Positions 38,701 to 44,248 of a DNA stretch of 64,000 bases are shown one piece after another (position 1 is the stretch's first letter; every line of letters starts with the position of its first letter). Source of the stretch: Branchiostoma floridae (taxonomy: Eukaryota > Chordata > Leptocardii > Amphioxiformes > Branchiostomatidae); the NCBI RefSeq assembly GCF_000003815.2, contig NC_049988.1, positions 9,074,545-9,138,544 on the forward strand, written 5' to 3'. Below the pieces are notes generated by a model, which was not told where the DNA came from, ran no database searches, and saw only the letters and a list, made by a program, of their open reading frames with translations. A program made the position numbers and the translations under genes.

Positions 38701-41700
38701 CAAGCTTTTCTTTTGTAATTGAAAGCTTCTGATATCAGTTAGTATTAGTGAAACATGCTACTGTAAATTCCATTTTTTTTTCATATTTGTGCTGGAGAGG
38801 TTACTGTGAAACTTGAAACTTAAAACTTTGATGAACATATTAAGATTTGCAGTACGTATTTCTGCATGGTTGGACAAATCCATTATCCCGATCGTCCAGG
38901 GCAAGTGAAAGTGCCGATCGAGCAAGTGCATGTCCTACCTCACTTGTCCGATCGGGCAAGTAAGACTTTTTCATGGGGGAGATTTTGGTATACTTGTTAC
39001 CTTTCACAGTTATGGAATCAAGCATTGGTCACACAAAAAAATAGAGGCAATAATAAAGGAATTCCATTGCTGGAAGTGAAAATCCGTGGGAAAATGTCCT
39101 TTAAATTTCGGGGAAGTGGAAAAAATGGTTTGGGCAACTAGATTTTTTATTTACTTGCCCAATAGGACAAGTGAATTTCAGAAAACTTGTCCAACCCAGT
39201 TTCTGACCTGTGTGTTTGTTTCCTAGGAGGAAGCTGAGGTAACAACAGAGCTGGAGAAGCTGGAGAGAGAGAAGAACCTGCACATCAGGGAGATGAAGAG
39301 GATCATGAACGAGGACAACTCACGGTCAGACAACTCAGAACCCTCATTCAAGTGTTATAGATGACTGAAATGGTTTAAGGGAATCCTTGAGAGAAAGTAT
39401 AATTGTATAATTCTTAGACCTTCAGTATAACATGTTCTATATTTGGAAAGTCTGACTATTTGTATTATATTTAATTTAATTTGTTGGTTCTCAGATTTCT
39501 CTACCCATTTTTTTTCCGATTTGGGAAAAAAAATTAGTCCCAAGAAAAATGATATAGGTTTTGCTATTGCAGACCTTTGAAAAAACCCATTCCAGGGGCA
39601 CATACTGCTGATAAACCAATCAGAGCGCTTATTTGCAGTCACATGATCAGAACAGTGGTATAAAATCAAAGGAAGAGATTCATTGGATAAATCATGCCAT
39701 GAAAAGCTGAAAACTTGACTTCTTACCTTGTTTTTTTGTTATATTAAGTTCACCACAGACTTTTTTTGACAGACTGCCCCAATATTTTTCTGAAAAAAAT
39801 CTGAGAAACAAAAAATTCAATTTGTGTGGCCTAATCTTCAATGACTTCATATTGCTAGCTCTTTGCATGCTTACTGCACTCTACATACTGAATTGGCAGA
39901 ACATCCTCTTCTAGAAGTGTGTGTGGACTGCATACTGAAGATTTTGTCTTTATGTTATCCCCAGGTTCCGAGACAACGAGACCCTGAACGACAGATATCT
40001 GCTGCTGTGTTTACTAGGGAAGGGTGGCTTTAGTGAGGTTCACAAGGTACTGTGGCTTTTACTTCTTATAAGGAAAACTTATATCTAGCTACTTCCTATT
40101 GATGTTTCTTGTCAAAATGCAAAGAGGGATGTGAAGATAGTACTCCATGGAAGTCGAACTTTTAAGAGTTCTATAAAGAAGCAAAACAAACGAAGAGGAT
40201 AAAATGGAATTTTACTTAATCATAATGAAAATTATAACTTAAGTTCTGTGCAGAAGATAGAAAGCTTGGACATGCTGACGTTACCAAATAAAAAAGTACA
40301 GTAACATTGACATCCTCTTTCTATTAAATGATCTTAAATTCCAGTAAATAAGTTAAAACAGGAGAGGTGCCATGTAACTTTGACTACTTTAGACCTTAAG
40401 TAATGACCCCTGTTTGTGTTCTTGTCCAGGCCTTTGATCTAAAGGAGCAGCGATACGTCGCCTGTAAGATTCACCAACTCAACAAGGACTGGAAGGAGGA
40501 TAAAAAGGCCAACTATATCAAGTACGTTCTGCACAGTGTGGCTTTTTCCTTAGTGATACTGATTCAAAACTGTATTACAATCTGATTTCTCAACTAGATT
40601 TAGTCAGAACAGACATGTACATTTGTGAAAAAGAAAGCAAATATGAACGGTTATCTTTTATATTACCACTTTCTGATTGTTCTGTTATAAAGATATTGAT
40701 ATGTTTTGTTTCCATCTCCAGACACGCCATGAGAGAATATGAAATCCACAAGAAGCTGGATCATCCCCGGATCGTCAAGCTGTATGACGTGTTTGAGATA
40801 GACAACAATTCGTAAGTCAAGCCTCCTTGATACAGGAAAGATAAAAGTACACTAACAGAAACTAGTAGAGAATGACATGTTATTTAAGTATTTCAGGTGT
40901 AAATATTATTTTTTTAACAGTCTTTCTCTGTGTTCCAAATACAGTCACAGAGAAAAGCAGAACTGAAAAGATTGTTGGAAACTTAGCTTGGTCTTATTGA
41001 CAAAGGATGAAACGTCTGACTGTTAACAAAATCATATCCAGTTGCCTGAGTAGTTGCTATTTGGTGTTCCTGTCTCCTATTTCCTTATCGAAAACACAGC
41101 TTTGACAAAGTGGTTCATGTGTTTTTTCTCCCCCCAGATTCTGTACAGTCCTAGAATACTGTGATGGGAATGACATGGACTAATACTACTGTTGTTCATG
41201 TGTTTTCTGTACCCCCAGATTCTGTACAGTCCTAGAATACTGTGATGGGAATGACCTGGACTATAATACTGTTGTTCATGTGTTTTCTGTACCCCCAGAT
41301 TCTGTACAGTCCTAGAATACTGTGATGGGACTGACCTGGACTATAATACTGTTGTTCGTGTGTTCTCTATACCCCCCAGATTCTGTACAGTCCTAGAATA
41401 CTGTGATGGGAATGACCTGGACTACTACCTGAAGCAGCACAAGTGTATGGGTGAGAAGGAGGCACGCTCCCTCATCATGCAGGCCGTCAGTGCCTTGAAG
41501 TACCTAAACGAGATCACACCACCCGTCATACACTACGATCTCAAGCCAGGTCAGTCACTGTTCAGTGTTGCTGTTAGGGGCTGGTCAGTGGTCATTCAGA
41601 AGTTACAGTTATCACACCACCCGTCATACACTACGATCTCAAGCCAGGTCAGTCACTGTTCAGTGTTACTGTAGGGGCTGGTCATTCAGAAGTTACAGTT

Positions 41701-44248: not shown

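Follow-up and report, generated by a model that had tools for sequence, protein, structure and literature searches.

The window (the whole stretch of amphioxus DNA analyzed here, 64 kb in length) carries on its plus strand a gene for a Tousled-like kinase (TLK), which we modelled as 12 exons between 37604 and 44248 by combining a tblastn search with a TLK bait and a reading of the splice sites. The model is a prediction that covers the gene from 37604 onward. Its last nine exons give an open frame of 365 residues with a terminal stop. The spliced product matches TLK2 (PDB 5o0y) over residues 1-333 with an E-value of 1.2e-170, the sole distinct sequence below 1e-100 among solved structures, and matches the Pfam Pkinase profile with an E-value of 9.7e-60. 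Judged by its sequence, the predicted kinase domain is nearest to TLK among the solved structures. The feature of interest is a 170 bp exon of this gene at 41380-41549, preceded by CCCCCCAG and ending in CAG followed by GTCAGT, which on its own matches 5o0y with an E-value of 1.6e-29. It encodes FCTVLEYC...HYDLKPG, which we take to be the hinge-to-catalytic-loop stretch of the kinase. The exon is intact and joins its modelled neighbors, at 40722-40811 upstream and 42550-42685 downstream, in frame, while skipping it on the model leads to a frameshift and an early stop. An earlier note on this DNA had described an intact catalytic-loop exon of a TLK gene, and both the identity of the gene and the integrity of the exon, with its HYDLKP motif, are borne out by these matches and by the reading frame. 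That the exon is constitutive and the kinase essential, as the note also has it, is an inference.

Both edges of this exon are duplicated in tandem, and the two arrays together span 41113-42147. The acceptor edge is present four times, with the first exonic base at 41138, 41219, 41299, and 41380 (A1 to A4, spaced by 81, 80, and 81 nt), and the donor edge six times, with the last exonic base at 41549, 41647, 41737, 41837, 41938, and 42055 (D1 to D6, spaced by 98, 90, 100, 101, and 117 nt). Tandem Repeats Finder (TRF) reports a period of 81 with 3.9 copies and 94% matches for the 5′ array (41113-41424), and a period of 101 with 4.1 copies and 89% matches for the 3′ array (41656-42087). The copy numbers and coordinates claimed in the earlier note are correct. 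A 20-mer over the acceptor occurs exactly four times in the 64-kb window. A 24-mer at the donor also occurs exactly four times, and D4 and D5 depart from the remaining copies at two exonic bases. We judged the arrays to be real from the four and six near-identical copies of 80-117 bp.

Alignment of the units, all on the plus strand, divides the 5′ array into unit 1 (41113-41193, exon-like from A1 onward), unit 2 (41194-41273, with A2), unit 3 (41274-41353, with A3), and unit 4 (41354-41434), which runs into the real exon at A4 and has a nominal end. In the 3′ array, unit 1 (41513-41610) comprises the end of the real exon, its donor D1, and the start of the intron, and is followed by unit 2 (41611-41700), unit 3 (41701-41800), unit 4 (41801-41901), unit 5 (41902-42018), which exceeds unit 4 by 16 bases, and unit 6 (42019-42147), which runs into the downstream intron and again has a nominal end; units 2 to 6 carry the decoy donors D2 to D6. 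When we scanned 24 edges of the model (23 splice edges and the end of the coding sequence) for duplication within 2.5 kb at an E-value of 0.01, both edges of this exon gave matches, and the other 22 showed no duplication. Comparison of the two arrays with each other by blastn gave no direct similarity, just three short antisense matches of 11-19 nt, which agrees with the previous claim that two separate minisatellites have grown from the two edges of one exon. By eye, the breakpoints of the 5′ array show about 10 bases of filler between the exon-like and intron-like parts, which is too little to identify how the array originated.

Outside the TLK gene, the window holds a large inverted repeat with arms at 27945-30080 and 30181-32280, the longest arm match extending over 2124 aligned bases at 88.8%. 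Since a 100-N gap (30081-30180) separates the arms, this feature may be either a true palindrome or a pair of allelic copies assembled in opposite orientation. Both arms contain 51-bp minisatellites (29092-30077 on the plus strand and 30181-31130 on the minus strand) with units bearing the donor-like ACAGGTRAGTAA, which has 24 exact matches in the window, 11 on the plus and 13 on the minus strand and all of them in the 51-bp arrays, where 0.02 would be expected. In the stretches inspected, the 51-bp units also hold an acceptor-like CTATAG or ACAG, and a unit can therefore resemble a tiny intron. Tandem repeats of short period (10-24), with as many as 43 copies, lie at 62599-63410, and minus-strand open frames at 51409-53772 read like what is presumably an alpha-tubulin gene.

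We assessed the quality of the duplicated splice sites with a matrix built from the other modelled sites of the same gene, a small set of 10 donors and 11 acceptors that scores the donor and acceptor sequences themselves. The AG or GT signal is kept in all copies (4/4 acceptors and 6/6 donors), and every copy thus retains a usable-looking site, as had been noted. The donor 9-mer CAGGTCAGT is identical at all six donors and scores 7.45 bits each time, compared with 1.1 to 5.7 bits for the 10 other donors (leave-one-out). Acceptors A1, A2, A3, and A4 score 15.1, 12.7, 12.7, and 6.1 bits, respectively, against -1.1 to 14.2 bits for the 11 others, so that on this small matrix of 11 sites the authentic acceptor is the lowest-scoring of the four. 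With A4 weakest and the six donors tied, site strength does not select the authentic pair A4-D1. Apart from the six copies, 3′ unit 1 holds a seventh donor-like site, CTGGTCAGT at 41583, which scores 6.56 bits; joined to any of the four acceptors, it leads to a premature stop 337 nt or more upstream of the last junction.

Transcripts whose stop codon lies more than 50-55 nt upstream of the last exon junction are usually subject to nonsense-mediated decay (NMD). Frame analysis of the 24 possible acceptor-donor pairings showed that only two remain open to the natural stop: A4-D1, which gives the 365-aa product, and A3-D1, which adds 81 nt and gives a product of 392 aa with 27 extra residues, A3 being the only decoy acceptor to stay open. 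The other 22 run into a premature stop 341 nt or more upstream of the last junction and are therefore predicted NMD targets; use of A1 leads to a stop within the extended exon, and use of A2 to a frameshift with a stop likewise within it. The earlier note had counted up to 24 pairings, and while its arithmetic is right, a 24-fold splicing repertoire is not supported as stated, given 22 early stops and two open frames, and boundary copies of this kind already have a name in amphioxus, “mirages.” Exon definition favors short exons with paired sites. Since A4-D1 delimits the shortest of the 24 possible exons (170 nt, the others being 251-918 nt long), exon definition should favor the authentic pair without any further signal. 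In D4 and D5, the HYD codons read HYH, with loss of what we take to be the catalytic aspartate of the kinase, as would be expected of untranslated copies.

Inner copies generally resemble one another more closely than boundary copies do. In the 5′ array, the differences amount to 1/80 positions for A2-A3, 6/80 for A1-A2, and 6/70 for A1-A4 (unit tail excluded). In the 3′ array the differences between successive copies are 4/90 for D1-D2, 2/89 for D2-D3, 8/100 for D3-D4, 4/101 for D4-D5, and 12/117 for D5-D6, the value for D3-D4 showing that this array forms no smooth gradient. D5 has a 16-base segment close to the end of the unit, and D6 a similar one, which D1 to D4 lack. When the outermost copies of each array were compared with each other, the exonic parts were less diverged than the intronic ones. 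D1 and D6 differ at 0 of 37 exonic and at 8-11 of 48-53 intronic positions (p-value 0.002-0.009 depending on the alignment and the columns counted, with 3′ unit 6 taken to 42147 and two alignments used), and A1 and A4 differ at 1 of 45 exonic and 5 of 25 intronic positions (p-value 0.02). With the used exon held fixed, the combined p-value was 0.007-0.015, these pairs having been picked as the outermost copies and the p-values being uncorrected for multiple looks. Among the unused copies alone, the difference between exonic and intronic parts was not significant (p-value 0.34 for A1-A3 and 0.11-0.29 for D2-D6). Plain neutral decay does not explain the contrast seen in the outermost copies. It could be due to gene conversion involving the real exon, to constraint acting on the copies, or to an intronic part that changes faster.

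Mutual masking of the two arrays by RNA pairing was considered and set aside, as shuffled repeated units pair equally well in the fold. The duplex between unit A3 and unit D1 reaches -61.0 kcal/mol (z -4.1, with z ranging from -0.3 to -4.1 over the 24 unit pairs scored), and all other windows tried from the gene region stayed weaker than -54 (0/370 and 0/364 reached it). For a smaller set of four pairs, 1, 5, 29, and 38 of 500 shuffles attained the observed energy. When 41050-42200 was folded, D1 (0.46 unpaired) and A4 (0.63 unpaired) were the most accessible donor and acceptor, and the same held in five of five windows. After the 5′ array had been replaced by repeated shuffled units, total pairing between acceptor and donor arrays averaged 98.7, compared with the observed 92.5, with 14 of 28 controls at or above 92.5. 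In 25 of the 28, D1 was still the most accessible donor; the replacement included the intronic part of A4, and this control thus says nothing on the accessibility of A4. The excess of A2 and A3 in duplexes with D1 and D2 is left unexplained by the shuffled-array control. A substitution within 5′ unit 3 creates ACTGACCTGG at 41321-41339, which is exactly antisense to the donor CCAGGTCAGT at 41935-41953.

Taken together, we consider it likely that two tandem duplications over the exon boundaries gave rise to minisatellites of the mirage type, which persist as near-neutral passengers while the gene is spliced normally from A4 to D1. According to this model, a separate duplication over each boundary of the one exon would have founded each of the two short arrays. 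Exon definition would pick the innermost pair, and the rare use of other sites would mostly produce NMD targets, which would leave the arrays close to neutral in the two introns. Turnover would proceed through unequal exchange or slippage, with copy number probably varying between alleles. The passenger reading is supported by the regular splicing that Adh3 data and globin RT-PCR are reported to suggest for other mirages (PMC3087553). Against complete inertness, the globin copies are said in the same source to be potential cryptic sites (PMC3087553), and the JGI annotation places an unconfirmed exon inside a PGBD5 array (PMC3902484).

Alternatively, the decoys may form a regulated splicing switch that diverts some transcripts into NMD or into the A3-D1 isoform with its 27-residue insert, and so tunes the level of TLK. 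The higher scores of A1 to A3 relative to A4, the tie among the donors, the open frame of the A3-D1 product, and the lower divergence of the exonic parts of the outermost copies would all fit such a switch. We nevertheless regard it as improbable, as 22 of the 24 products are predicted NMD targets, the unused copies by themselves show no significant constraint, and the published mirages are described as leaving splicing unaffected (PMC3087553, PMC3902484). We give slightly less credence still to a splicing dial, in which the number of copies would set the share of TLK mRNA going to NMD or to the 27-residue isoform, and alleles of different array length would differ in TLK output.

It is similarly improbable that the arrays are an artefact of assembly, their copy number being too high or too low because repeats were misassembled or two haplotypes merged. 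Two 100-N gaps in the 64-kb window mark the assembly as scaffolded, and the copy number may be wrong; there are also precedents in amphioxus, as the numbers of PGBD5 repeats differ between two assembly versions (PMC3902484) and the assembly of the BflGb6 array in the draft was described as aberrant (PMC3087553). However, most copies bear substitutions and indels of their own, unlike a simple duplication of reads, no gap lies closer to the arrays than 10.9 kb, and the original PGBD5 sequence was confirmed by re-sequencing (PMC3902484). Least probable of all is an early stage of intron gain, with a copy becoming a new exon and array units a new intron. Gain of this type has been put forward for the amphioxus globins and reported in potato RdRp, which share the same kind of boundary duplication (PMC3087553, PMC4974935). 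In the site scan, however, the 5′ array lacks any donor scoring within one bit of the D sites, and the stretch from D1 to D6 lacks any acceptor that outscores A4 or comes within one bit of it, so that no extra exon can be closed within either array with such sites.

By their anatomy, the TLK arrays fit a class of repeats that has already been described. Mirages are minisatellite-like duplications of exon-intron boundaries, known in amphioxus from Adh3, troponin C, globins, and PGBD5, and are considered not to disturb splicing (PMC3087553, PMC3902484). The unit lengths found here (80-81 bp and 90-117 bp) fall within the 10-160 bp of the reported cases (PMC3087553). A literature search combining “Tousled-like kinase” with amphioxus gave no match, and the available portions of PMC3087553 and PMC3902484 contain no other double-edged exon; as Adh3 and troponin C were compared second-hand, we make no claim that the TLK exon is the first. 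Like TLK, these two genes have boundary repeats, those of Adh3 having units of 10-72 bp and showing somatic instability (both via PMC3087553, PMC3902484). The globin genes BflGb6 and BflGb9 resemble TLK in that their minisatellite-like boundary duplications keep AG or GT in many copies, and that inner copies are homogenized while the boundary copies are left out, and BflGb6 copy number differs between haplotypes (6 and 3). In the globins, however, the 5′ edge (BflGb6, 150-160 bp) and the 3′ edge (BflGb9, 157 bp) are duplicated in separate genes, whereas in TLK both edges of one exon are affected (PMC3087553). In PGBD5, tandem repeats of 60 and 108 bp extend over splice sites and are likened to mirages by the authors, but the arrays lie on two different exons (3 and 4), and there is little transcript evidence for them (PMC3902484). 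The duplication in potato RdRp likewise crosses an intron-exon boundary, although a new intron arose there and neither a new intron nor a new exon is predicted in TLK (PMC4974935). To a repeat class that has been reported gene by gene, the TLK locus contributes a case in a kinase gene with both exon edges affected. With four acceptors and six donors that share the same 9-mer flanking a single exon, it offers a natural test of splice-site choice in which position, through exon definition, may decide.
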